From: Flavobacteriaceae bacterium
GTDB lineage: Bacteria > Bacteroidota > Bacteroidia > Flavobacteriales > Weeksellaceae
DNA: 64,000 nt
Assembly (NCBI GenBank): GCA_030538275.1
Contig: JAUNUH010000005.1
Location: forward strand, 1 to 64,000
Direction: 5' to 3'
Notes under the pieces: generated by a model
What the model saw: the letters and a program-made list of their open reading frames with translations, nothing else
Told to the model about the DNA's origin: nothing
Database searches by the model: none
Program-made: the position numbers and the translations under genes
Shown here: positions 1,188 to 12,619 of the stretch, one piece after another
Layout: each line of letters starts with the position of its first letter
Numbering within the stretch: the first letter of the stretch is position 1

Positions 1188-2114
1188 TTACAAACAATTT
1201 GCTATATGCCTGGAAATATCATAACCTCCAAAATAATTCAAATCCTCAAATTGTCCTAATGGATTAACTTCTAAAAAATAATATTCATTATTAGCAGAAA
1301 GAATGTCCATTGTACCCGTGTTTAAATTAAGTGTCTTTGATAATAACAGAATTTTTCTATTCAATTGCGGAGATAAAGCATATTGCAAGTATTTTTTATC
1401 GAATGTTTGATTATTTCTTACATCAATCTCATTCGAAAAATCAAAAGTGGCAATTGCCCAAACATTTTCCTCAAAAAAGAAAATTCTTAGTTCATAATAC
1501 TTTTTGATCTTCTCTTGAAGAAAGAAAGGAGTTTTATCATCACGATCATCGTCTATTTCATCCAATCTTACTTCTTTGGTATAATTGAGATACAACTTGT
1601 TGTCATGAAAGATATGCATGACCTCAGAAATTGATTTGTTTATATACTCTTTTTCACTGTTCAAATTCTGAATATTATTGGTTTTCATCAAAAGATGTGT
1701 TTCTGGAATTTTCCATCCCAATTTCTTTGCAATCATTAAAACCTCAAGTTTATTTACTTCTTTGTTATTTAGATTGCCAAATATTTTGATATTTAAGTGT
1801 TCCAGTAAAAAGTATATAAAATGTTTAAGTGATTTTATTTCTTCATTGAAAAAAGTGATTAAATTCTCATCACTTTCACTATAGTTTTGAAAAAAACCAA
1901 TTGTCCCATTTCTGTAATAAACTGATTCGAAATTTTTTAAATTATATTTTTCATATTCTATAGTAAGCTCAAAAATCTCTTTATCGAAATTAAAATATAA
2001 ATCCCTTATCAGATTATCCATATTTAAACGTACAAACGGCTTTTTTTGAAATAATAGCCATGCACATATTTCATTGGTCATTGCATCATTCGAGGCACTG
2101 ATGATTAGTTTCAT
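1188..2114 (-). CDS. ATP-grasp peptide ligase, grasp-with-spasm type, module 1
   Basis: 308 residues, MvdD/RimK-like ATP-grasp fold. The C-terminal ATP-grasp signature is clear: TGTMDIL near residue 267 followed by YYFLEVNPLGQF, where the Glu and Asn bind Mg-ATP. A basic/aromatic stretch before it (LQEKIKKYYELRIFFF) matches the central part of the family. Such ligases activate Asp/Glu side chains of a precursor as acyl phosphates and form ester or amide cross-links. The likely substrate is the peptide at 3281-3508. Its start overlaps the end of the preceding gene by 29 bp, which suggests translational coupling. It is a distant paralogue of the 327-residue ligase at 5649-6632, not a recent copy, in contrast to the identical SPASM tails. 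Confidence 0.88.
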   Translation of the reverse strand: MKLIISASNDAMTNEICAWLLFQKKPFVRLNMDNLIRDLYFNFDKEIFELTIEYEKYNLKNFESVYYRNGTIGFFQNYSESDENLITFFNEEIKSLKHFIYFLLEHLNIKIFGNLNNKEVNKLEVLMIAKKLGWKIPETHLLMKTNNIQNLNSEKEYINKSISEVMHIFHDNKLYLNYTKEVRLDEIDDDRDDKTPFFLQEKIKKYYELRIFFFEENVWAIATFDFSNEIDVRNNQTFDKKYLQYALSPQLNRKILLLSKTLNLNTGTMDILSANNEYYFLEVNPLGQFEDLNYFGGYDISRHIANCL

Positions 2115-3153
2115 TGATTTTTATTAAATGTTTTTTCATGAATTCAATGTATTTTTTATCATTGCTTTGTGAACCCACAACGCCACTGTATGGAAAAACA
2201 TAATCGGTATTGCGGAGGTTGTAAAGCCTCTTTTTTAGCAAGTCATCTATACTGCTCATACCTATTTTACTGCGGTTTTCATTGATTTGTTCAACAAATT
2301 GATTTCCCTTTTCGCCCCTTTTCTCGGGGACAAACCATTCATGAACATAACAACATTCAAAATCTTCTTCTTCAAAGGCGAATTCTTTAATATCAAAATG
2401 TATGGGATTAAAGTTTTCGGTTCCTTTTACTAAATCGGATAAGTGACCTGCAAATTCAGGTGATAGCTTTCCTTGATTCAATGCGTTATTAATTTCATTA
2501 CTAAAATCAACCTGTTGAGGAAATAAGGAATTTCTTGCCAATTGGTGAACAATTATGATATAAAAACCGTTAAAAAAATCTGTCGAACTTCTAGACAAAC
2601 CTATATTATATTCATTTGGAAACCCTTTTTTGATGAATAATTTATACAATTCATTGGAGACAATACTGTCATATTTTTCTATGTTTTCGGCAAATTTGTC
2701 ATAATCTCCATCCGACAACAATCTATAATACTGGTCAAGGAAATGCAATGAATCCAGTTTCATTCTATACTCCAAATCAATTTTGAAATTGCAGTTGGTT
2801 TTGCGCGAGTTGTACTGGTTGCCAAAATGTTTATTATGAAAATCCTTGTCAAATCGATAATCCATACAATTCAATCGCTGGTACTTTTCATGTGCCAAAT
2901 CTGTTTTTTTGGAATGAATCAATACCATCATATCATTATATAAATCCTTGGCATGTGGCTCATCAAAAAAACCGAAAGCCTTTTCATAATGCTCATGCGC
3001 TTTTTCTAAATCATTGTCCACAATTGCCATTTCAGCCTGATGGATATGTTGGTAATATTGAATGAGATTAGGGTCTTTGAGTTCAATAGATTGTGAACCA
3101 ACCATTCTAAATAATAAAAATAACAGTATTAAAGTGGAAATTTTAAAATTCAT
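2086..3153 (-). CDS. secreted DUF6624-like protein, module 1
   Basis: 355 residues with a Sec signal peptide (MNFKISTLILLFLLFRMVGSQS). Residues ~35-90 look like a TPR-type helical repeat (AEMAIVDNDLEKAHEHYEKA). The C-terminal part resembles the DUF6624 pattern, with an alpha-helical segment followed by NRSKIGMSSID, equivalent to RAEIGLPPLQD in the module 2 protein and NKTIGLPSIE in the module 3 fragment. Function unknown. It lies between precursor and ligase, and a relative recurs in each cassette, so it probably belongs to the system, perhaps as a periplasmic partner, receptor or immunity-like protein. Those roles are inference only. The family match was made by eye. Confidence 0.75.
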   Translation of the reverse strand: MNFKISTLILLFLLFRMVGSQSIELKDPNLIQYYQHIHQAEMAIVDNDLEKAHEHYEKAFGFFDEPHAKDLYNDMMVLIHSKKTDLAHEKYQRLNCMDYRFDKDFHNKHFGNQYNSRKTNCNFKIDLEYRMKLDSLHFLDQYYRLLSDGDYDKFAENIEKYDSIVSNELYKLFIKKGFPNEYNIGLSRSSTDFFNGFYIIIVHQLARNSLFPQQVDFSNEINNALNQGKLSPEFAGHLSDLVKGTENFNPIHFDIKEFAFEEEDFECCYVHEWFVPEKRGEKGNQFVEQINENRSKIGMSSIDDLLKKRLYNLRNTDYVFPYSGVVGSQSNDKKYIEFMKKHLIKINETNHQCLE

Positions 3154-3280
3154 ACAAGCTTTAGAGCTAAATTATACCTACATTTCAAACGTTATGTTAA
3201 TTTCTTTATTTTACTCAAAAAGAAAAAAAGGCTGTTTTACTTTCTTTGTATTACAGCCAATTTTTTGAATAATTCAAGGT

Positions 3281-3508
3281 TTAGCAAGGATAAGAATCTT
3301 TAAAAACTTCACCAAAATAAACCCAATTACCATCAATTTTTTTATCACCAGTATAGGTTACACAAGTGCAATAACCATTACTTGGATAATTCTGCAATTC
3401 TCTTTCACCCTTAGGGCTAGTTTCTAAATCACCACCCTTACCACCAAAAGTGTTTAAGAGCTTAACATTCTCTAATTGATAAGCTTCCAATTTTTCTAAT
3501 TTTCTCAT
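3281..3508 (-). CDS. GG-leader precursor peptide, module 1
   Basis: 75 residues. The leader begins MRKLEKLEAYQLENVKLLN and ends in FGGKGG at residues 21-26, the double-glycine type cleavage site typical of Bacteroidota natural product precursors (GG-Bacteroidales-like). The core that follows is about 49 residues, rich in Asp/Glu/Lys/Ser/Thr and aromatic residues, with CTC in the middle and a C-terminal Cys. Acidic plus hydroxyl/lysine residues fit an ATP-grasp cross-linking enzyme. It is the first gene of the minus-strand operon and is read divergently from the XRE regulator at 3659. The modification pattern cannot be read from sequence. Confidence 0.85.
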   Translation of the reverse strand: MRKLEKLEAYQLENVKLLNTFGGKGGDLETSPKGERELQNYPSNGYCTCVTYTGDKKIDGNWVYFGEVFKDSYPC

Positions 3509-3556
3509 AATTATACGTAAATTTTATTATTAAAAAAAGGTCTTTCCTTTTTTTCT

Positions 3557-3572
3557 TTTACAAACTTGTAAA
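3557..3572. promoter_or_regulatory. operator-like inverted repeat TTTACAA-AC-TTGTAAA
   Basis: Perfect 7-bp arms separated by AC, between the precursor gene and the XRE gene. The same element, with 6-bp arms, is at 7612-7625. It lies about 50 bp upstream of the precursor start codon on the minus strand, so it may control the peptide operon. Binding protein unknown; the adjacent XRE regulator is the obvious candidate. Confidence 0.5.
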
Positions 3573-3600
3573 TTAATTTTCAAAGCTTAATGCTGGTTTA

Positions 3601-3641
3601 CCGATAATTTTAATCGGCTAACCGATAATTTTGTATTTTTG
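3601..3641 (+). promoter_or_regulatory. CCGAT operator repeats and -7 element before the XRE gene
   Basis: CCGAT at 3601-3605 and ATCGG at 3613-3617 form an inverted repeat; a second CCGAT lies at 3622-3626. A Bacteroidota -7 motif TATTTTTG is at 3634-3641, 18 bp before the ATG at 3659. The repeats would overlap the -33 region, which suggests autorepression by the encoded regulator. The arrangement is conserved at 7655-7695. Confidence 0.55.
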
Positions 3642-3658
3642 TAATAAATTGATTTATT

Positions 3659-4003
3659 ATGACTTTCGGAAGTGTTCTATTAAGAAATCGGGTAAAAAAC
3701 AATTACACTCAAAATCAAGTTGCAGAACTACTACAAGTTTCTCAAAGTACATATTGTGATTGGGAAAGTGGTAGTGCTATACCAAAAACAGAAAATCTGA
3801 TTAAGGTTGCATCTTTATACAATTTAGATTTGAATGAATTATTAGCTTCGTTTCATCAAGAAAAAGTGAATATAGTAAACAGTCCTAATACGATTAGTAA
3901 TAGTCCAAATTCAAAAATAGAAACAACTGAAGCCTTGGTAAAAATAGCCGAAAACATTGAAAAGCTTGTAGTTCTTATTGAGAAATTATACAATAAAGAA
4001 TAG
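3659..4003 (+). CDS. XRE-family (HTH) transcriptional regulator, module 1
   Basis: 114 residues. Residues ~4-62 form a Cro/C1-type HTH: QNQVAELLQVSQSTYCDWESG carries the recognition helix, followed by IPKTENLIKVASLYNLDLNELL. After an Asn/Ser-rich linker (SPNTISNSPNS) the C-terminal ~28 residues look like a coiled coil (TTEALVKIAENIEKLVVLIEKL), probably for oligomerisation. It is divergent from the precursor operon and has CCGAT repeats over its own promoter, so it most likely regulates the cassette and itself. A near-identical copy at 7713-8057 is broken by a stop codon, leaving this as the intact version. Confidence 0.85.
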   Translation: MTFGSVLLRNRVKNNYTQNQVAELLQVSQSTYCDWESGSAIPKTENLIKVASLYNLDLNELLASFHQEKVNIVNSPNTISNSPNSKIETTEALVKIAENIEKLVVLIEKLYNKE

Positions 4004-4221
4004 GAAAAACGGCTTGATTCAATAAAAAAGTAAATCTTGTAACAATTTTATAAATACTGTTTTCTAAAACTTACTGATAAAACAATGGATAAGGGTATTC
4101 TGAACATAATTTAATCAAAAATATTTAAGGAATCGTATGATTCAGTAATGAATTCAAATTTCTTTTGTAGTTTTAAAACTTCTCTTGTCATTTATTCATG
4201 TAGTTTTTTATTTAAAGGTAT

Positions 4222-4368
4222 TCACGAAACTCCACTTCGTTCGTTTTCAGACAAGTTGCGGATTTGATGAATAGGAATGGTTTTGCCGTAATGTTTGGCA
4301 ATAATCTTTAAGCAAGTTGGACCGCAGTCTTTGGCATCGGGTTGTTTGTAGTGAGGGAATTTTTTCAA
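4222..4368 (-). pseudogene. N-terminal stub of a C39-peptidase ABC exporter, copy A
   Basis: A 48-codon frame from TTG 4368 to TGA 4224-4222. It encodes the start of the peptidase C39 domain of bacteriocin-processing ABC transporters (PCAT type): KQPDAKDCGPTCLKIIAKHYG contains the catalytic Cys of the DCGPTC motif. It then stops after NERSGVS, where the family continues for several hundred residues. It follows the SPASM gene by 54 bp, the place where a leader-cleaving exporter would sit. The second copy at 8287-8433 has the same length and stop, so the truncation predates the duplication. It has no ATG; TTG occupies the expected start. Confidence 0.8.
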
Positions 4369-4422
4369 TTTTGAATGTTTAATGCTTGATTTTGAATTAA
4401 TTCATAATTCATAATTCACAAT

Positions 4423-5475
4423 TCAAAATCCATAAAACTCAATGGCTTTTTGTTTTAGGGGATTTGTGCTCCATTCGGCCCATTCTCCTGTATAGGGATT
4501 ATAGCCGCATTTCAACGGTTTTGAGATATCCAGGCCTTCTTGGTTGGTATGTGTGCGTTCTGTATAAGCTCTGCAATCTGTGCAGATATAACGGAACTCA
4601 CAATCTTTGCATACTTCAATCTCATCTTTGGTGAGGTTCCAGTATTTTTTGAACCCGGGTTTGTTGAGTGCCTCTTGCAGCGTGGTGTCTTTTATATTAC
4701 CATAACTTTGTGGCATGGATGGGCAGTTGCGGATTTCGCCGTTTTGGTCGATAGATATTTTAAGGTTGAGGCAGGAGTTGCAAGACTTTGAAGTTAAATA
4801 TGTTCTTAAATTTGGATGAAACAAACTTTCAGATATAATTCCACAATTTTTTTTATCTATTAGTTTTGACTTCACAAAATATACCTCTTCATTTTCAAAT
4901 TTTTCTGTCAATGAACAATTAGTAACGACTAACCTTGCAATAATCTTGTTTGTTAAATAAAAATTTAGATATTCATTAGTCGAATATAATTCATTTTTTT
5001 GAACTATAATTTCTAGAGATAAAAGATCTTGGTTTAAAACCCTTTCTATAATCAGTACCAACTCCTCAATTTTTGGAGAAAAAAATAAGCGTAATTGTAA
5101 GGACTCGAATACAAAATCTAACTTTTCTAAACTATCTAATACGTTATTTGTGCTTTGAGAATCCAAAATAATGTCTTCAATATGAAAAGAAGAAGAATAT
5201 TTTTCATTTCGAATACTAATATTTTTTTGTTTTGATTTTGTAAAGAAAATAAAGTTTTCTAAAACAAGAAAATTCAAATATTTCTCAATATTTTTAACAC
5301 TTGAAATATCATATTTCGTTAATATAACATCCAAATCTTTGTTAAGGTTAGATTGTATGAATAAAGATAATTCTTTTGGAATTTGACAATAGACACCTCT
5401 TTCGGTATCAATTACAGTAGAGAGTTTTGCGCCATCAGTAAAATAACAACAACTGAAAAGATTAAGAAATCTCAT
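4423..5475 (-). CDS. SPASM-domain peptide maturase, module 2
   Basis: 350 residues. The C-terminal SPASM domain has cysteines at 232, 235 (CNSC), 251, 289, 292 (CKDC), 298, 301 (CTDC) and 323, suited to auxiliary Fe-S clusters. The N-terminal half lacks a CxxxCxxC radical-SAM motif, as is described for SPASM proteins of grasp-with-spasm systems. Its partner would be the ATP-grasp ligase at 5649-6632 and its substrate the peptide at 7341-7562. It overlaps the small ORF upstream by 14 bp. From residue ~242 the DNA is identical to the module 1 gene, while the part before it is different, indicating recombination at this point. Confidence 0.88.
   Translation of the reverse strand: MRFLNLFSCCYFTDGAKLSTVIDTERGVYCQIPKELSLFIQSNLNKDLDVILTKYDISSVKNIEKYLNFLVLENFIFFTKSKQKNISIRNEKYSSSFHIEDIILDSQSTNNVLDSLEKLDFVFESLQLRLFFSPKIEELVLIIERVLNQDLLSLEIIVQKNELYSTNEYLNFYLTNKIIARLVVTNCSLTEKFENEEVYFVKSKLIDKKNCGIISESLFHPNLRTYLTSKSCNSCLNLKISIDQNGEIRNCPSMPQSYGNIKDTTLQEALNKPGFKKYWNLTKDEIEVCKDCEFRYICTDCRAYTERTHTNQEGLDISKPLKCGYNPYTGEWAEWSTNPLKQKAIEFYGF
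4479..4753. repeat. 275-bp perfect repeat of 1-275 (SPASM tail)
   Basis: No mismatch was found by eye between 4479-4753 and 1-275. The match ends at base 4753/275 and probably extends left of the window. It covers SPASM residues ~242-332 of the module 2 protein. The flanking N-terminal coding sequences are not alignable by eye, so this is a sharp recombination boundary. Confidence 0.9.
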
Positions 5476-5659
5476 ATATTTTACTTATGCATTTCGTATG
5501 AGATTTTCTTAAATAAACTTGTCTATAAAAATTGTTTACTCTCCCTTTTACTAAAAAGCTAGAAAAAGTTGATTTTTTCATTTCAATAATTTCACTATTA
5601 AAATAAGCAATTGGAAGTTTTCCTTTTTTTACTAAATTATTGATTTCCTCAACTTTCAT
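5462..5659 (-). CDS. small basic protein between ATP-grasp and SPASM genes, module 2
   Basis: 65 residues, starting MKVEEINNLVKKGKLP and ending SKIYEIS. The start overlaps the ATP-grasp gene by 11 bp and the end overlaps the SPASM gene by 14 bp, the pattern of translationally coupled operon genes. It is Lys/Arg/Ser-rich with a single Cys, and has no signal peptide. A 52-residue basic ORF sits at the same place in module 1. I do not recognise the family. It might be a peptide-binding accessory factor, but nothing in the sequence proves this. Confidence 0.6.
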   Translation of the reverse strand: MKVEEINNLVKKGKLPIAYFNSEIIEMKKSTFSSFLVKGRVNNFYRQVYLRKSHTKCISKIYEIS

Positions 5660-6632
5660 TTTTATCTCTTTTTATCATATACTCTACAACTTCTTTTTCA
5701 AAATCCAAATTCCCTCGAAATGAATAGCCCGAAATTTGTCCAACTGGATTTACTTCTAAAAAGTAAAATTCGTTATTTTCTGATTGTAAAATGTCTATAC
5801 AACCAATGTTCAACTTTATAGTTTCCATTAATTTTACGATTCTTTCTTCAATTTCATTAGGCAGCTCGCTATAAATAATACGAAAAACATCTTCATTTCC
5901 ATCTGTTTTTCTTGAATCAATTTTTGATATTTCATTTTCCTGTGTAAGTAGTTCGACAGGGAAACATTTTCTGTTAAAGTACAAAATTCTATATTCTTTC
6001 TTTTTTATTATAAGCTCCTGAAAAATACTCATTTGGAACCTAATTGGAAGTATATTTATAAAATTGGTGTCTATAACCTTTGTATAAATAGGATTAATAA
6101 GAAAATTGTTTTCTGTAAAGTTTCTTGGGAAATTACCAATAGCTTTTGTAATAATCTTGCTGTGTCTTTTCATGAAAGAAGCCAATGCATTTTTATTGTT
6201 TGTCACAATAAAATCAGGGACATTTAATCCACAGCTCATTGCTTTATGCAAAATTGTCAATTTATTTACATTAGCTTTATCAATTTTTGGTATCCACTCA
6301 GCATTTCTTAATGAATGATCTAAAAACTGCCTAAATTCATAAATTTCAGAAGATATAGTTTTTCTTAATCCAATATTAAACTTTTTATCGTCAACAATTC
6401 TGGGTAACTCATCTGTTGTTAACCACCTTCTGTTCAAAATAACCCTTACTTCTTTTGAAAGATTTCTTCCATTTACTAAAAGATGATTGTTTTTATTAAT
6501 ATAAATCTCCGTCTCATTTCGAAAGATGGATTCTCCCGTTAATATCATATAATCTGCTTGGTAGTAATTCAACCACTCTATAAAACGGGAATGAGAAAGA
6601 TCTCCAGCTTCGGTAGTTAAAACAAGAATCAT
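5649..6632 (-). CDS. ATP-grasp peptide ligase, grasp-with-spasm type, module 2
   Basis: 327 residues, ATP-grasp fold of the MvdD/RimK type. The C-terminal Mg-ATP motif reads GCIDILQSENNEFYFLEVNP at about residues 280-300. The central region has a conserved EYRILYFNRKCFPVEL strand pair. It probably activates acidic side chains in the peptide at 7341-7562 to make ester or amide cross-links. It starts 5 bp after the DUF6624-like gene and overlaps the small ORF downstream, so it lies inside a five-gene operon. Similarity to the module 1 ligase is at family level only, so enzyme and substrate seem to have diverged together. Confidence 0.88.
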   Translation of the reverse strand: MILVLTTEAGDLSHSRFIEWLNYYQADYMILTGESIFRNETEIYINKNNHLLVNGRNLSKEVRVILNRRWLTTDELPRIVDDKKFNIGLRKTISSEIYEFRQFLDHSLRNAEWIPKIDKANVNKLTILHKAMSCGLNVPDFIVTNNKNALASFMKRHSKIITKAIGNFPRNFTENNFLINPIYTKVIDTNFINILPIRFQMSIFQELIIKKKEYRILYFNRKCFPVELLTQENEISKIDSRKTDGNEDVFRIIYSELPNEIEERIVKLMETIKLNIGCIDILQSENNEFYFLEVNPVGQISGYSFRGNLDFEKEVVEYMIKRDKNES

Positions 6633-6637
6633 AAACT

Positions 6638-7264
6638 TTAATTACAGTGTATAAACATAGAATCCTGCAATGGAGGTAAACCAATTTCTGCACGAACAGA
6701 ATCGGATTTCTTACGGTATTTTAAACAAGGTTTGCCAAATTGTGAGCCGTATAATATTTTACTGTTTCCCAAAGAATCCCTTCTAATTATGTAGTATTTG
6801 TCTAAATAAAAAATGAAATTATCCATTTGCAGATTACCTTTTTCAACTTCTGATAAAAATAAATTAAAATACTCCTTTTCATTTATAAGTCTATGCGGAT
6901 TATGCAGTAAGACGGCATGGGCAGCAGCCTTGACACATTCGAATTTCATGTTATTTTCACCCAAAATTTCATTTCTTGGAAATCCATTTTTTCTTACAAA
7001 TTGAACAATTTTGTTAAAATTTACTGTATCAACCGCATGAATTAAACTCCATTCCATACGTAATCCATTAGGTTTGCCATCAAATACAAAATGGCCTAGT
7101 CTTATACCTTGATCGAAACCATAAATTTGACACAATTCAAATGCAAGGCTATCCTGTTTATTTTTTTTATATGAATAGTTCAATTCTTTCGAATTACTAA
7201 CTTTACAGCTGATAAAATGTAAACAAACAATAATAACTATATATTTTAAATGGCTAAACTTCAT
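6638..7264 (-). CDS. DUF6624-like lipoprotein, module 2
   Basis: 208 residues with a lipoprotein signal (hydrophobic segment followed by FISCKVS; Cys at residue 20 would be lipidated). The body resembles DUF6624: a helix with AAHAVLLHNPHR, then YIIRRDSLGNSKILYGSQFG and the final RAEIGLPPLQDS motif. Function of that family is unknown. It occupies the same slot, between precursor and ATP-grasp, as the 355-residue protein in module 1. It is probably an envelope-located partner of the modified peptide. Immunity, reception or anchoring are all possible and unproven. Confidence 0.75.
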   Translation of the reverse strand: MKFSHLKYIVIIVCLHFISCKVSNSKELNYSYKKNKQDSLAFELCQIYGFDQGIRLGHFVFDGKPNGLRMEWSLIHAVDTVNFNKIVQFVRKNGFPRNEILGENNMKFECVKAAAHAVLLHNPHRLINEKEYFNLFLSEVEKGNLQMDNFIFYLDKYYIIRRDSLGNSKILYGSQFGKPCLKYRKKSDSVRAEIGLPPLQDSMFIHCN

Positions 7265-7340
7265 AATTTAAAGTTCTAAGAAAAGGAATTAGCTTTGTAT
7301 TTTTAAAAATACAAAGCTAAAAAGAATAAATAGTTAATAT

Positions 7341-7562
7341 TTATATTGGCATATTAAATGTCCCGAGAAATCTATCCCCCTTATCAAACTCACCATTGCC
7401 ATTTGAGTCTTCGTACTCATTTTCTGCGACCTCTGTATAGGTTGTTAAATCGGCGAACCCTACTTGTTTAACTAAAGTAGTGGAGGTCCCTCCTTTAATA
7501 GAAACCAATTGACTTTTTTTGATTTCAGTTTCTTTAAAATTTTTTAGTTTTAATTTTTTCAT
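7341..7562 (-). CDS. GG-leader precursor peptide, module 2
   Basis: 73 residues using the ATG at 7562. An upstream ATG at 7637 would add 25 residues encoded within the shared control region and is less likely. The leader MKKLKLKNFKETEIKKSQLVSIKGG ends in GG at residues 24-25. The core is rich in Thr, Ser, Asp and Glu, with DSNGNGEFDKGD at about residues 52-63, which resembles a calcium-binding EF-hand or dockerin loop and also offers acidic side chains for an ATP-grasp ligase. It has no cysteine, unlike the module 1 peptide. First gene of the module 2 operon. Confidence 0.82.
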   Translation of the reverse strand: MKKLKLKNFKETEIKKSQLVSIKGGTSTTLVKQVGFADLTTYTEVAENEYEDSNGNGEFDKGDRFLGTFNMPI

Positions 7563-7611
7563 ATTTAAACATTTATTTTTATTATTAAAAAAGGTCTTTC
7601 CTTTTTTTCTT

Positions 7612-7625
7612 TTACAAACTTGTAA
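7612..7625. promoter_or_regulatory. operator-like inverted repeat TTACAA-AC-TTGTAA
   Basis: Second copy of the element at 3557-3572, with 6-bp arms. It is about 50 bp upstream of the module 2 precursor start on the minus strand. Conservation in two modules supports a regulatory role. Confidence 0.5.
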
Positions 7626-7654
7626 TTTAATTTTCAAAACTTAATGCTGGTTTA

Positions 7655-7695
7655 CCGATAATTTTAATCGGCTAACCGATAATTTTGTATTTTTG
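7655..7695 (+). promoter_or_regulatory. CCGAT operator repeats and -7 element, module 2
   Basis: Same layout as 3601-3641: CCGAT, ATCGG, CCGAT, then TATTTTTG at 7688-7695, before the ATG at 7713. The sequence is unchanged although the downstream regulator gene is broken, so the site may still respond to the intact regulator at 3659. Confidence 0.5.
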
Positions 7696-7712
7696 TAATA
7701 AATTGATTTATT

Positions 7713-8057
7713 ATGACTTTCGGAAGTGTTCTATTAAGAAATCGGGTAAAAAACAATTACAATCAAAATCAAGTTGCAGAACTATTACAAGTTTCTCAAA
7801 GTACTTATTGTGATTAGGAAAGTGGTAGTACTATACCAAAAACAGAAAATTTGATTAAGGTTGCATCTTTATACAATTTAGATTTGAATGAATTATTAGC
7901 CTCCTTTCATCAAGACAAAGTGAATATAGTAAACAGTCCTAATACGATCAGTAATAGTCCAAATTCAAAAATAGAAACGACTGAAGCCTTGGTAAAAATA
8001 GCCGAAAACATTGACAAGCTCGTAATTCTTATTGAGAAATTATACAATAAAGAATAG
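7713..8057 (+). pseudogene. XRE-family regulator with nonsense codon, module 2
   Basis: Near-identical to the 114-residue regulator at 3659-4003, but codon 35 is TAG (7815-7817) where the intact copy has TGG (Trp, next to the recognition helix). Translation from the normal start would give a 34-residue fragment. The remainder stays open to 8057; an internal ATG at 7851 would give only the C-terminal 68 residues with the coiled coil. That fragment could in principle interfere with the intact regulator by mixed oligomers, but a plain pseudogene is the simplest reading. Confidence 0.85.
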
Positions 8058-8286
8058 GAAAAACGGCTTGATTCAATAAAAAAGTAAATCTTGTAACTAT
8101 TTTATAAATGCTGTTTTCTAATACTTACGGATAAAACAATGTTAAGGGTATTCTGCACATAATTTAATCAAAAATATCTAAGGAATTGAATCTGTAATGA
8201 ATTCAATTTTCTCTTGTAATCACAACAAACTACTGCCTTCTCTTGTAGTTTGTTCATGTAGTTTTTTATTTTTTATTTAAAGGTAT

Positions 8287-8433
8287 TCACGAAACTCCAC
8301 TTCGTTCGTTTTCAGACAGGTTACGGATTTGCTGTATAGGAATGGTTTTGCCGTAATGTTTGGCAATAATCTTTAAGCAAGTTGGGCCGCAGTCTTTGGC
8401 ATCGGGTTGTTTGTAGTGAGGGAATTTTTTCAA
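8287..8433 (-). pseudogene. N-terminal stub of a C39-peptidase ABC exporter, copy B
   Basis: Same 48-codon frame as 4222-4368, from TTG 8433 to TGA 8289-8287. The DCGPTC catalytic motif is kept and few residues differ (HQIRN becomes QQIRN). It ends at the same NERSGVS stop. It lies 54 bp after the end of the SPASM tail fragment, as in copy A. The frame has stayed open in both copies, which is either recent duplication or weak constraint. Confidence 0.78.
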
Positions 8434-8487: not shown

Positions 8488-8598
8488 TCAAAATCCATAA
8501 AACTCAATGGCTTTTTGTTTTAGGGGATTTGTGCTCCATTCGGCCCATTCTCCTGTATAGGGATTATAGCCGCATTTCAACGGTTTTGAGATATCCAG
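8488..8598 (-). pseudogene. SPASM maturase tail fragment, module 3
   Basis: Encodes only the last 36 residues of the SPASM protein, from LDISKPLKCGYN to the stop, identical in sequence to 4423-4533. The coding sequence upstream is replaced at 8599 by an unrelated precursor peptide gene, in a different frame. It has no start codon and is not expected to function. Confidence 0.85.
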
Positions 8599-8737
8599 TT
8601 TGTGCAGATGTATAATCATCTGTCATGGCTGGGCCGCCTTGACCGCCAATTTGTTTTGACAATGAAATTTTTGTCATCTTAAACCTGTTAAGTTTTTCTA
8701 ATCTCTTAATGATAAAATATTTAAAGTTAAAATTCAT
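8564..8737 (-). pseudogene. GG-leader precursor peptide fused to SPASM tail, module 3
   Basis: The leader KRLEKLNRFKMTKISLSKQIGGQGG aligns without gaps to the module 1 leader, with IGGQGG at the FGGKGG position. The codon at the expected start is ATT. An ATG at 8737 gives a 57-residue frame that overlaps the end of the upstream gene. After ~14 core residues (PAMTDDYTSAQT) the frame runs across the junction at 8598/8599 into out-of-frame SPASM sequence and stops after YLKTVEMRL. The native core and the whole ligase/SPASM region are missing. It is most likely a deletion product, though a short peptide could still be made. Confidence 0.75.
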
Positions 8738-8999
8738 ATCTAAATCTCTGATATTCAATACTAGGCAATCCAATGGTTTTGTTATTCTCATTGAATTGCT
8801 TGATTTTATTGAAGTCCTTTTTAGCCATAAGCGACGGAATCATTTGAAAATCCAGAAATAAATATTCCTGCGGCTCATTAAGAATTCTTTGTTTGTAGGA
8901 ATTTCTCAAAGAAGCCAAATCCATCGGAGTACATTGTCCTTTTTTTACACATTCGAGCATCTTTTCTTCATAATAATCATAATATCCCTGATAATCCAT
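8727..8999 (-). pseudogene. C-terminal fragment of a DUF6624-like protein, module 3
   Basis: About 90 residues from MDYQGYYDYYEE to RFRYEF. The C-terminus (KQFNENNKTIGLPSIEYQ) matches the ends of the DUF6624-like proteins in modules 1 and 2. No signal peptide is present. The open frame continues upstream to 9041, but there it is antisense to an HTH gene, so the true 5' part has been lost at about 9000. Its stop overlaps the ATG of the next gene. Confidence 0.65.
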
Positions 9000-9509: not shown

Positions 9510-10157
9510 ATGGACGTTAAAACCACAAAAAATGAACTACAAAATATCCTTTCGGGAACGCGCATTATTGGCCATGACACAGTTATCCAAACAATTGCCC
9601 GTCACCTTAGAACAGGCAAGAGAACAAGCCCTTTGGCTGAAGAAAAACACCAAAACAAAGCAAAAGAAACAGAGAAACTCATAAAATTTGCACATCAAAA
9701 CAGGATGTTTTTTGACCAAATAGAGGAAGAAAATTACATATCCGAAGGCGCAGAGCAAAAAGTGTACATTAAAAATGATGAATATGTCTTGAAACTAAAT
9801 GATGCCATTTATTACGCATCTTGGGAAGACTACTTTTTCAATATTTTACTTCACAATTATTTTTTTCCTGATACTGCCTATCATTTAATGGGATTTCATT
9901 TTGATGGAAAAATCTTGTATGCCGTTGTAAAACAAGCTTTTGTGCGGGCAGATTCGCTTACGGATTTAGAAAATGTAAAAACTTTTCTGGAAAGTAATGG
10001 ATTTGTAAACACAAAAAATCATGATTATTTCCAACCTGATTTAGGCATTGTATTGGAAGATTTGCACGATGAAAATGTGCTGAGTCAAAAAGGAATTCTT
10101 TATTTTATTGATACTGTTTTTTATATCCAACCAGAAATTTTCTGGGAAAATTCATAA
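9510..10157 (+). CDS. kinase-fold protein resembling polyvalent-protein kinases
   Basis: 215 residues. The central and C-terminal parts follow the compact kinase-like pattern seen in Kinase-PolyVal domains: a glycine-containing strand with EGAEQKVYIKNDEYVLKLND (nucleotide-binding lobe and Lys), a hydrophobic core (LYAVVKQAFVRA), LEDLHDENVL as a catalytic-loop equivalent, and IDTVF in place of DFG. The N-terminal ~60 residues are charged and helical. Such domains are found in mobile-element and phage polyvalent proteins. It has its own promoter and borders the damaged RiPP array. Substrate and activity are unknown; the assignment is from motif shape only. Confidence 0.55.
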   Translation: MDVKTTKNELQNILSGTRIIGHDTVIQTIARHLRTGKRTSPLAEEKHQNKAKETEKLIKFAHQNRMFFDQIEEENYISEGAEQKVYIKNDEYVLKLNDAIYYASWEDYFFNILLHNYFFPDTAYHLMGFHFDGKILYAVVKQAFVRADSLTDLENVKTFLESNGFVNTKNHDYFQPDLGIVLEDLHDENVLSQKGILYFIDTVFYIQPEIFWENS

Positions 10158-10168
10158 TTCACAATCCA

Positions 10169-10906
10169 TTAATCAGAAGTATCAACGCCACGGCCGTAAT
10201 CTTCACCAAATTTCTCTTTACGTTCTTGCATCTTTTTCTGAAATTCTTCTCTTGTCATAATCGTATAATCCTTGAAAAGTTCAAAATCTACTTTTTTATC
10301 AAAGTTTTCAATTTTATTCGCCTTAAATTCTATGCTGAATCCATCCGGATAGGTTTCTTTGTAATACAAAATTAATCCTGGCAAACCGTTGGATCGCCAA
10401 GGTCCTGCTTTGGACTGGATTTCCGGGGTGTACAAGGCATAGATTTCTGCATCATTAGCATCGGGTATAGTTGCTTTGTAAACTTTGTAGCCGATAAAAT
10501 TACTTTCTGTTCGTTCCAATTGCCAATTTGCCGTCGCTATGGTCTCAACAAAGCCTTCTTTTCCTTTATAATGAGGATAAATCAAGGTGTTTTTTTCAAA
10601 ATTGCTCAGATAAGTACGGTCATCGGGTGGCGTAAAAAAGTAATGTTGATCTCCAATGATGACGACACCTTCTTCACGCAAATGTGGAATTCTTTTCCAC
10701 AAAGTTTGATTGCCTTTGATGAATAATTCATAATCATAAATCATATCATTGAAAGTATTTGCGGCAAGTTTGAAGTCTGCATCGGTATTTCTTCCCTCGG
10801 GAATGGGGTTAAAATACTTCATTTCATATTCTATTCTTAAGATGTCCTGTGCATGTACAAATCCCAAACACAGGCATAAAATAATGATTAATTTATTGTT
10901 TTTCAT
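10169..10906 (-). CDS. GLPGLI family protein
   Basis: 245 residues with a signal peptide (MKNNKLIIILCLCLGFVHAQ). The family-defining motif appears as SNGLPGLILYYKE near residue 175. The rest is a beta-rich secreted domain with an acidic C-terminus. GLPGLI proteins are common in Bacteroidota, and their role is not established. It is the last gene of a three-gene minus-strand unit after the thioredoxin-fold protein (20 bp gap) and the cysteine-rich peptide, which suggests a joint role in the envelope. Confidence 0.85.
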   Translation of the reverse strand: MKNNKLIIILCLCLGFVHAQDILRIEYEMKYFNPIPEGRNTDADFKLAANTFNDMIYDYELFIKGNQTLWKRIPHLREEGVVIIGDQHYFFTPPDDRTYLSNFEKNTLIYPHYKGKEGFVETIATANWQLERTESNFIGYKVYKATIPDANDAEIYALYTPEIQSKAGPWRSNGLPGLILYYKETYPDGFSIEFKANKIENFDKKVDFELFKDYTIMTREEFQKKMQERKEKFGEDYGRGVDTSD

Positions 10907-10925
10907 TTATAATTCTTTGTTTTCT

Positions 10926-12392
10926 TTAACGTTTTATAGTGTTTTTTATTTGCTGATACATTTTTTCTTTTTCAGTCGGTAAAAGTGTTTTATCCAACAA
11001 TATTTCGCCGTTCTTTCCAAATAACATATATCTTGGTAAATCAGTTTGGTCTTGAAAATCAGCCAATTGATTTATATTTTGATGCATTTCCATGGGTGGG
11101 AAGTAATGCCAAGTGTTCAGATTGCGTTTGCGGATATTGCGCAGCCATTTACCAGAGTTTACCTGTGAGTCCAAGGTTACATAAAGCAAGTCAATGCCTT
11201 CCTTTTCCAAAAATGCTTTTAAATTCTGATGCTGCAATAATTGCGGAATACAGATTCCGCACCAATTGGCCCATAATGCAACCAATACATTTTTGCCTTG
11301 AAAATTTTCAGAAATTACATTTTCAAGTTTATTATAATTCTTATGGGATTGATTTCGTACCAAATTTGATTCTCGGTCAAAGGTGCCAAACGTATGCACA
11401 TAATCTACATTGTTTTCCTGCGCCAATTGGGTGTAAATCCTATCTAAATTCGGCATTTGAGGATGATCGGGATACAATAGTTTGAAATTATCATAGATTT
11501 CGCGGGTATATTCATAATCAAATTTATCATCATCGTGCATTCCCGTGAGCTGACTCACCGCAATCATAGGTTGTAATCGTGGCGGAATGTAATAATAAGT
11601 GTTATCAGATTCGTTCCAAATGCCTGTGATATATTTTTCTCCAGGCAGCCAACCTTTTTCTATATAGGAAGCCTTTCTTTCTATATAGCCTCTTTTTATC
11701 CACCCTCTATAATCATTGTATTTGGGATCAAAAGGATCATAAGTTTTGGTTAAATAAATCAAAAATTCTTTTTTGGGAATGATGTTATCCTTTAAACTAA
11801 AATACATATGCATAGAAAAAGCCCATTCGAATTTCATAATGTCCAGAAATTTTTTATGAAATGCGGAATCTATTTTCTTTGTTTTCAGCAATAAATCCAA
11901 ATTTCTTCCAATTTTCAGTTGAAATTCGTCTTCAAAAAAATAAATCATTCTTTCGGATGTAGAATAATTTTGAAGTCGTTTAGCCAAATTTGAAGGTACT
12001 TGTACATTGTAATGCCAATCAAAATATTTCTTGGCATGCGCAAAACTGCCGGTACCACTTAAATTCTTATCAAAACTATCTATGCCATCAAATTTAATTT
12101 TAGTCTTCGGTCCAATTATTAAACCTAAACCTCGTGGTCTATTACTTAAATCCGCATAAGTTGTAGAATCTGTATAAAATGAAATCCGGCCTTTGCCGTT
12201 TTTTAAAGGGAAAATTTGAGAAGTATCATAAGTTATAGAATCTCGGTACATTTCTGTTGTGTACAGTATAATTTCATGGTCTTTTAGGTCAATTCCGCTG
12301 TAATCAACATCGATAAACGTATTGGGTTGCTGTCCCATTAGACAGCTACAAAATAAAATCCACGCTAAATTGAAAATACATCTTGTTTGCAT
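10926..12392 (-). CDS. TlpA-like thiol-disulfide protein with long N-terminal domain
   Basis: 488 residues with a signal peptide ending near CSCLMGQQ. The C-terminal ~150 residues are a thioredoxin/TlpA fold with the active-site motif WANWCGICIP (CxxC), then LLYVTLDS and a cis-Pro type DLPRYMLF. The N-terminal ~330 residues resemble the beta-sandwich and helical regions found ahead of the thioredoxin domain in Bacteroidota redoxins. It likely reduces or oxidises cysteines in the periplasm. It starts 30 bp after a peptide with eight core cysteines, which makes that peptide a plausible substrate. Confidence 0.85.
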   Translation of the reverse strand: MQTRCIFNLAWILFCSCLMGQQPNTFIDVDYSGIDLKDHEIILYTTEMYRDSITYDTSQIFPLKNGKGRISFYTDSTTYADLSNRPRGLGLIIGPKTKIKFDGIDSFDKNLSGTGSFAHAKKYFDWHYNVQVPSNLAKRLQNYSTSERMIYFFEDEFQLKIGRNLDLLLKTKKIDSAFHKKFLDIMKFEWAFSMHMYFSLKDNIIPKKEFLIYLTKTYDPFDPKYNDYRGWIKRGYIERKASYIEKGWLPGEKYITGIWNESDNTYYYIPPRLQPMIAVSQLTGMHDDDKFDYEYTREIYDNFKLLYPDHPQMPNLDRIYTQLAQENNVDYVHTFGTFDRESNLVRNQSHKNYNKLENVISENFQGKNVLVALWANWCGICIPQLLQHQNLKAFLEKEGIDLLYVTLDSQVNSGKWLRNIRKRNLNTWHYFPPMEMHQNINQLADFQDQTDLPRYMLFGKNGEILLDKTLLPTEKEKMYQQIKNTIKR

Positions 12393-12421
12393 AGTAAAAT
12401 AACGTGGATTTTTAATTTAAA

Positions 12422-12619
12422 TTATTCATCATCAGGACAATGCGCTGGTTTCAAATCATGTGGCCTACCACAAGCTTTATGACAAAAGCATTGACAGTTT
12501 TGATATGAACCACAATTTTCATGTGATGCACCACAACCACAATCTGCCGACCAACCTCCGCCTTTACCGCCAGAAATTGTCGCCATCTGTTCTCTCGAAA
12601 TAGTTTTAAATCTTTTCAT
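12422..12619 (-). CDS. cysteine-rich GG-leader peptide
   Basis: 65 residues. The leader MKRFKTISREQMATISGGKGG resembles Bacteroidota natural product leaders and ends in GGKGG at residues 17-21. The 44-residue core has eight cysteines (including CGC and CQCFC) and four histidines, with an acidic C-terminus. Such a core could hold disulfides, thioethers or bound metal. No ATP-grasp, radical SAM or lanthionine enzyme is beside it; the neighbours are a TlpA-like protein and a GLPGLI protein. The start is placed at the ATG that begins the leader. Confidence 0.75.
   Translation of the reverse strand: MKRFKTISREQMATISGGKGGGWSADCGCGASHENCGSYQNCQCFCHKACGRPHDLKPAHCPDDE

Follow-up and report, generated by a model that had tools for sequence, protein, structure and literature searches.

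A cysteine-rich leader peptide and a GLPGLI protein as a candidate exported peptide-partner pair in a marine flavobacterium

What does a short peptide with eight cysteines do when its gene lies beside genes for a thioredoxin-fold protein and a GLPGLI protein, and which of these neighbors is its actual partner? This question was raised by a minus-strand locus in the stretch of 64,000 nt analyzed here (the window), from a marine flavobacterium whose genome is nearest to Profundicola (assembly G000, 2.49 Mb, 95% complete). An earlier note had described a trio of a Cys-rich leader peptide, a TlpA-like protein with a CxxC motif and a GLPGLI protein. All three genes were indeed found on the minus strand, arranged head to tail and separated by 29 and 19 nt. 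A PADLOC defence search of the trio gave no match. The features are as follows:

12422-12619, minus strand: precursor peptide, 65 aa, with a double-glycine type leader and an 8-Cys core (sequence; ortholog at L003:2566-2745)
12566-12619, minus strand: leader MKRFKTISREQMATISGG, residues 1-18 (sequence; counterpart in Profundicola chukchiensis, MKKFKTLSRNQMSSIYGSGS)
12425-12565, minus strand: Cys-rich core of 47 aa with 8 Cys, among them CxC and CxCxC motifs (sequence)
10926-12392, minus strand: exported TlpA-like protein, 488 aa (sequence, domain scan)
11409-12251, minus strand: N-terminal and helical part of the TlpA-like protein, residues 48-328 (the sole portion retained in P. chukchiensis)
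11001-11327, minus strand: thioredoxin-fold domain with WCGIC, residues 356-464 (PF08534, E 4.6e-7; missing in P. chukchiensis, L003)
10169-10906, minus strand: exported protein of the GLPGLI family, 245 aa, with a predicted LolA-like bowl fold (TIGR01200, 93 bits; AlphaFold2, pLDDT 92.3)
10370-10387, minus strand: GLPGLI motif, residues 174-179 (sequence)

The peptide reads MKRFKTISREQMATISGG-KGGGWSADCGCGASHENCGSYQNCQCFCHKACGRPHDLKPAHCPDDE as leader and core. A double-glycine cleavage site of the GG/GA type is present as ISGG at residues 15-18, and the eight Cys and four His described before lie within the 47 residues that follow the GG, or within 44 residues if counted after the last G of GGKGGG. 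The curated leader models scored the peptide below their cutoffs (TIGR01847, 14.2 bits with a cutoff of 15.7; NF047798, 13.1 bits with a cutoff of 23.5). Markov shuffling of the window (20 replicates) never produced a short ORF with 8 Cys within 40 residues, compared to one case in the real sequence. Since the shuffles gave no such ORF and P. chukchiensis has a same-order trio whose peptide also contains 8 Cys, a chance origin of the peptide gene was excluded.

This second trio (8-Cys peptide, TlpA-like protein, GLPGLI protein) is located in P. chukchiensis KMM 9724 (G001) at a non-syntenic site. P. chukchiensis was the sole genome found by a contig scan with the GLPGLI pair, and it is the only other genome that was found to have the orthologous TlpA and GLPGLI genes; the peptide gene is present beside them there. 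The two GLPGLI orthologs are 45% identical over the full length. The P. chukchiensis peptide has retained the 8 Cys and has a CxC motif, the four His are not kept, and the GG is replaced by GSGS (IYGSGS). The flanks of the two trios differ: MoxR/DUF58-type and gyrB-like genes are found in P. chukchiensis, and DoxX, YceI and a kinase-polyval gene in the window. Because the flanking genes differ between the sites, the trio seems to move as one unit. A broken HlyD gene follows immediately downstream of the P. chukchiensis trio.

The role of the middle gene was assessed by the same comparison. The N-terminus of an exported protein was read from the TlpA-like sequence, and the Redoxin domain PF08534 was detected above cutoff at residues 356-464 (E 4.6e-7). 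The nearest solved structure to this domain was 2lja, and 4k9z and 3gl3 were also similar. The earlier note had suggested that this protein handles folding or reduction of the peptide. A disulfide isomerase or reductase dedicated to the peptide would be in line with a gene that adjoins the peptide gene on the same strand and encodes an exported product, and also with the intact WCGIC motif and an LPR segment where the cis-Pro usually sits. However, its only ortholog, a protein of 323 aa in P. chukchiensis (39% identity over residues 48-328, E 2.9e-59), has lost the whole thioredoxin domain although peptide and GLPGLI protein were retained there, and thioredoxin-fold genes are nearly absent at other peptide-GLPGLI loci. 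Folding or reduction by the thioredoxin neighbor was thus not confirmed as the central function: since P. chukchiensis keeps the pair without this domain, dependence of the peptide on a redox partner was not upheld, and we consider a dedicated isomerase or reductase quite improbable. As judged from the genes, the system is the peptide-GLPGLI pair, with the thioredoxin as an optional part that is not conserved. The N-terminal domain of the TlpA-like protein was present in only 2 of 296 genomes of the family, and a contig scan with the TlpA-like protein as query found no relative. Its AlphaFold2 model was of low confidence (pLDDT 66) and too uncertain in the N-terminal part, for which no fold is therefore claimed. 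A small exported thioredoxin-fold protein of P. chukchiensis (L078:5224-5787, minus strand, 187 aa, WCKPC) is encoded within a cluster of genes for Cys peptides and GLPGLI-type proteins.

The surroundings of the trio were different from what had been described before. The statement that no classical RiPP enzyme is encoded nearby was inaccurate, as a grasp-with-spasm locus begins about 3.5 kb beyond the GLPGLI gene. This locus forms a transcription unit of its own and has a separate precursor; the ATP-grasp and SPASM enzymes do not belong to the peptide operon and lie 3.5-9 kb away, past a gene on the opposite strand. The region 1188-8433 holds two diverged tandem copies of the graspetide locus:

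1188-2114 and 5649-6632: ATP-grasp genes
4423-5475: intact SPASM gene
3659-4003 and 7851-8057: related HTH genes
7341-7637: precursor-like peptide of the graspetide locus
4201-4359 and 8245-8424: similarly truncated C39 fragments

At 8488-8619 and 8564-8791 a remnant of a SPASM C-terminus (LDISKPLKCGYNPYTGEWAEWSTNPLKQKAIEFYGF) repeats the end of the 4423-5475 gene beside a small GG-containing ORF, which reads as a sign of duplication and decay. The plus-strand gene 9510-10157 encodes a Kinase-PolyVal domain protein (PF18762, 208 bits) and is short and free-standing, next to a partial HTH gene. Domains of the Kinase-PolyVal type take their name from the polyvalent proteins of mobile elements. 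On the minus strand, the segment 12854-14878 immediately upstream of the peptide gene holds genes for DoxX, YceI, glyoxalase and a second YceI, and the DoxX protein matched the HvfX copper-RiPP maturation family weakly (27 bits with a cutoff of 80).

Genome searches for an intact C39-peptidase exporter found none in the window genome (95% complete assembly) and none in P. chukchiensis. The C39 genes of the window genome comprise two truncated fragments, both inside the window, and a third genome of the genus (G002) has two intact ones. Because the dedicated C39 exporter seems to be lost, the window peptide may leave by another route, or the copy may be a relict. In the latter case the trio would be what is left of a decaying locus for peptide export whose transporter was lost, as is suggested by the two fragments being the only C39-ABC genes of the window genome and by P. 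chukchiensis, which is also without C39, has lost the GG and shows the broken HlyD gene. All three frames of the window trio are intact, however, their order was kept at a different site, and the count of 8 Cys was conserved while the remaining peptide diverged. Moreover, at 95% completeness the exporter could be missing from the assembly. We consider decay of the locus rather unlikely.

The pairing of Cys peptides with GLPGLI genes was then analyzed in general at loci from Profundicola genomes, six Chryseobacterium-like genomes (63 genes), other Flavobacteriales and other Bacteroidota. A peptide was counted when it was short, exported, contained at least 2 Cys and ended at most 300 nt upstream on the same strand; the genes for comparison were taken from the same loci. 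Such a peptide was encoded directly upstream of 21 of 148 GLPGLI genes (about 14%) and of 6 of 299 other genes (Fisher p 1.2e-6). Two of these six cases are the window trio and its ortholog, in which the TlpA-like gene intervenes, and the protein of a further one (L084, 195 aa, GLKGLI motif) looks, by its sequence, like a diverged GLPGLI protein. No such peptide was found for the 16 GLPGLI genes of the class and phylum sample. The linkage of variable Cys-rich peptides to GLPGLI genes, as the earlier note had predicted it, thus extends across Flavobacteriales. For about 86% of the sampled GLPGLI genes no Cys peptide was detected upstream, so that the general job of the GLPGLI proteins does not depend on the peptide. 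Of these proteins, 10-27 copies per genome were counted in the Weeksellaceae genomes searched. Leaders of the Chryseobacterium type, as found by NF047798, preceded a GLPGLI gene in 4 of 114 positioned cases, with 0.4 expected. In Chryseobacterium-type genomes we also observed peptides with a double-glycine leader and 4-6 Cys that are arranged in arrays (L194, L195, L196), and neither a GLPGLI gene nor an exporter was seen there within the 5-6.5 kb fetched.

Other GLPGLI genes in the three Profundicola genomes often have a short Cys peptide of the Sec type in front. Many of the peptides have a recurrent core of about 35 residues in common, T-[ST]-C-G...[WY]-[TS]-x-x-Q...C, which contains only 2-4 Cys. 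A profile of this T-C-G core gave 11 matches with E<1e-9 over 11 whole genomes and nothing else of significance, and comparison of the coordinates showed that in 11 of 11 cases the gene immediately after the match encodes a GLPGLI protein. Eight of the 11 were part of the profile; the three from outside are G283:4164994, G021:C1:670507 and G043:2827367. The same core stands behind double-glycine leaders in L203, L204, L208 and L213 and behind Sec signals in L205, L207, L209, L211, L212 and L216, so that the export signal has been exchanged on one core. Ten of the peptides linked to GLPGLI genes were scanned with Pfam and NCBIfam, and no family was assigned to their cores. The window peptide was not matched by the core profile (A7) in the search of the whole window genome. 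The window genome also contains a Sec-type ORF (L088:3036-3407) that encodes 9 Cys (CFCG...CSCNC) and stops 4 nt before another GLPGLI gene; the CxC and CxCxC motifs of this ORF resemble those of the window peptide. Homology of the 8-Cys core to the T-C-G core or to this Sec peptide is not claimed, as the alignment was suggestive only.

The motifs bear on the proposal that the peptide binds metal. An exported peptide that is metallothionein-like or scavenges copper or zinc, and that is delivered by a carrier of the LolA fold, would be in line with the CxC and CxCxC motifs of the window peptide and the CxC of its ortholog, the similar Sec-type peptide in front of another GLPGLI gene of the same genome, and the weak HvfX match of the DoxX-type neighbor. 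The part of the proposal that was based on His was not supported: the P. chukchiensis ortholog has not kept the four His. The DoxX match is also far below its cutoff, no MNIO-type (DUF692) enzyme was detected among the flanking proteins scanned at the window trio, and the commoner T-C-G cores hold few Cys. Metal binding as the function of the peptide is very doubtful to us.

Peptide and GLPGLI protein have diverged in a correlated manner. The distances of peptide cores and of GLPGLI proteins showed a Mantel r of 0.81 for 16 pairs (including one duplicate) and of 0.77 for the 12 distinct pairs, and r fell to 0.58 when close peptide-GLPGLI pairs were removed (p<0.001 in all cases). When 128 GLPGLI proteins were placed in a tree, the label for a peptide required 8 changes, compared to 19 in shuffles, and thus clusters; these counts are approximate because deep branches are partly long or weak and because L069 and L088 were labelled as lacking a peptide, their signals having missed the filter. 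The double-glycine form of the T-C-G core is nested inside the Sec form. The proteins of the window and of P. chukchiensis group with full support in a separate clade that is distant from the T-C-G group, and this separation implies that distant branches either gained or retained the association.

The GLPGLI protein of the window matched TIGR01200 well above the cutoff of 50 bits, and G174, L175, P176 and G177 of its motif were invariant across 58 GLPGLI sequences. An AlphaFold2 model of the protein with 58 relatives reached a pLDDT of 92.3 and a pTM of 0.86. With Z 14.6 over 166 residues, the PNGase F-II bowl domain was the closest fold to this model, and LolA, RseB and VioE gave Z 8-10 (LolA entries, Z 7.8-9.5). 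The profile of the GLPGLI family matched the same PNGase F-II domain by sequence (E 9e-7). The family profile was required for this, as a search of solved structures with the single sequence gave nothing significant. One Bacteroides entry (7zgn) was itself deposited as 'Glpgli family protein', and a protein of 554 aa in a Chryseobacterium-like genome matched TIGR01200 directly; by its length and sequence we read the latter as PNGase F-II-like. We conclude that the GLPGLI protein is predicted with high confidence to form a LolA-like bowl with the N-terminal domain of PNGase F-II as nearest structure. Half-barrels of the LolA and RseB type are periplasmic binders of hydrophobic groups such as acyl chains or of peptides, and because of this property we infer a binding role for GLPGLI.

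The explanation that we favor, and to which we give roughly even confidence, is that the locus encodes an exported Cys peptide together with a dedicated exported GLPGLI partner, which would act as periplasmic carrier or as immunity protein. The peptide would be synthesized with a cleavable export signal, a double-glycine leader here and a Sec signal in most relatives, and would exit the cytoplasm, and its Cys would most likely pair as disulfides in the oxidizing periplasm. The GLPGLI protein would reach the periplasm by the Sec route, and its LolA-like bowl may bind the cognate peptide there, which would then be either carried onward or kept harmless to the producer. The intervening TlpA-like gene would be a Profundicola-specific addition that can help to set the redox state and is dispensable.

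The sharpest version of this explanation is a bacteriocin-immunity pair, with the peptide as antibacterial agent and GLPGLI as periplasmic immunity protein. The leader type that the window peptide has in common with the 'bacteriocin-like protein' family NF047798, the adjacent order of peptide and GLPGLI genes, and a genome with several diverged paralogous pairs of correlated divergence all point in this direction. On the other hand, 86% of the GLPGLI genes are free of a peptide, many double-glycine peptides occur without any GLPGLI gene, and many GLPGLI genes are instead partnered by outer-membrane barrel proteins. We judge an antibacterial pair to be possible, yet unlikely. If the peptides were antagonistic, such loci would be a new reservoir of bacteriocin-immunity pairs.

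The outer-membrane neighbors are a feature of many GLPGLI genes outside the Chryseobacterium-like genomes, where a gene for a carboxypeptidase-regulatory or outer-membrane beta-barrel protein of about 400-910 aa comes next. In L084, L094 and L095 a Cys peptide stands in front of the GLPGLI gene and the large gene lies downstream. This gene order hints at an arrangement of peptide, bowl and outer-membrane barrel. At nine Profundicola loci (L069, L073, L074, L076, L077, L079, L081, L082 and L084), mostly a gene for a protein of 800-910 aa is found 0-220 nt downstream; the Profundicola proteins of this size that were scanned contain a carboxypeptidase-regulatory domain, and one has a clear outer-membrane beta-barrel domain. 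Proteins of about 450 aa with a similar start sequence come after GLPGLI genes in other families.

In a wider reading, which we put forward tentatively and hold with somewhat less than even confidence, GLPGLI proteins would be periplasmic peptide-binding bowls, and a large unnamed class of secreted disulfide peptides, exported by Sec or C39, would exist, each with its co-inherited GLPGLI partner. Together they would make up a new kind of system for carrying peptides or for immunity, to which an outer-membrane barrel would sometimes be added. The GLPGLI proteins are a huge exported family of Flavobacteriales without an explained function, and the pairing provides a concrete handle on them: together with the predicted bowl fold it leads to the testable statement that GLPGLI binds a secreted peptide. 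One peptide core that moves between two export signals is unusual and useful for dissecting export.

The view that no named system has this composition agrees with the literature searched, in which GLPGLI is scarcely mentioned, in one paper only as annotated genes. A search for literature on NVEALA peptides as an analogy found none. Several known systems nevertheless resemble individual parts of the locus. The grasp-with-spasm graspetide locus in the neighborhood also has a precursor of the double-glycine type, together with ATP-grasp and SPASM enzymes, whereas the trio comprises no such enzyme. With the TlpA/ResA-type thiol-disulfide oxidoreductases of Bacteroidota the middle protein shares the CxxC thioredoxin fold at its C-terminus; its long N-terminal part, in contrast, occurs only in Profundicola relatives, and the thioredoxin domain is not conserved. 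LolA, RseB/MucB and VioE have the general architecture of half-barrel bowls in common with the GLPGLI model, a likeness of the predicted structure at identities of only 5-16%. The N-terminal bowl-like (NBL) domain of PNGase F-II (4r4x, 4r4z, 7zgn) is the closest fold and can be detected by profile, but it is fused to a glycosidase. No function of the NBL domain has been explained, and it is dispensable for enzyme activity (PMC9522356). The leaders of the Chryseobacterium 'bacteriocin-like proteins' (NF047798 leader_Chryseo, TIGR01847, NF047792 CCPGW) follow the same logic as the window leader, M-K-x-x-K-x-[LIM]-[ST]-[KR]-x-x-[LM]...GG, although the latter stays below the cutoffs with 13-14 bits. 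These peptides have Cys-rich cores like the window peptide and many paralogs per genome, and differ in that they are mostly without a GLPGLI neighbor and partly organized in tandem arrays. Compared with these systems, the pairing of Cys peptide and GLPGLI protein is a variant assembled from known components, and it stands a real chance of being the visible corner of a new kind of peptide-partner system.
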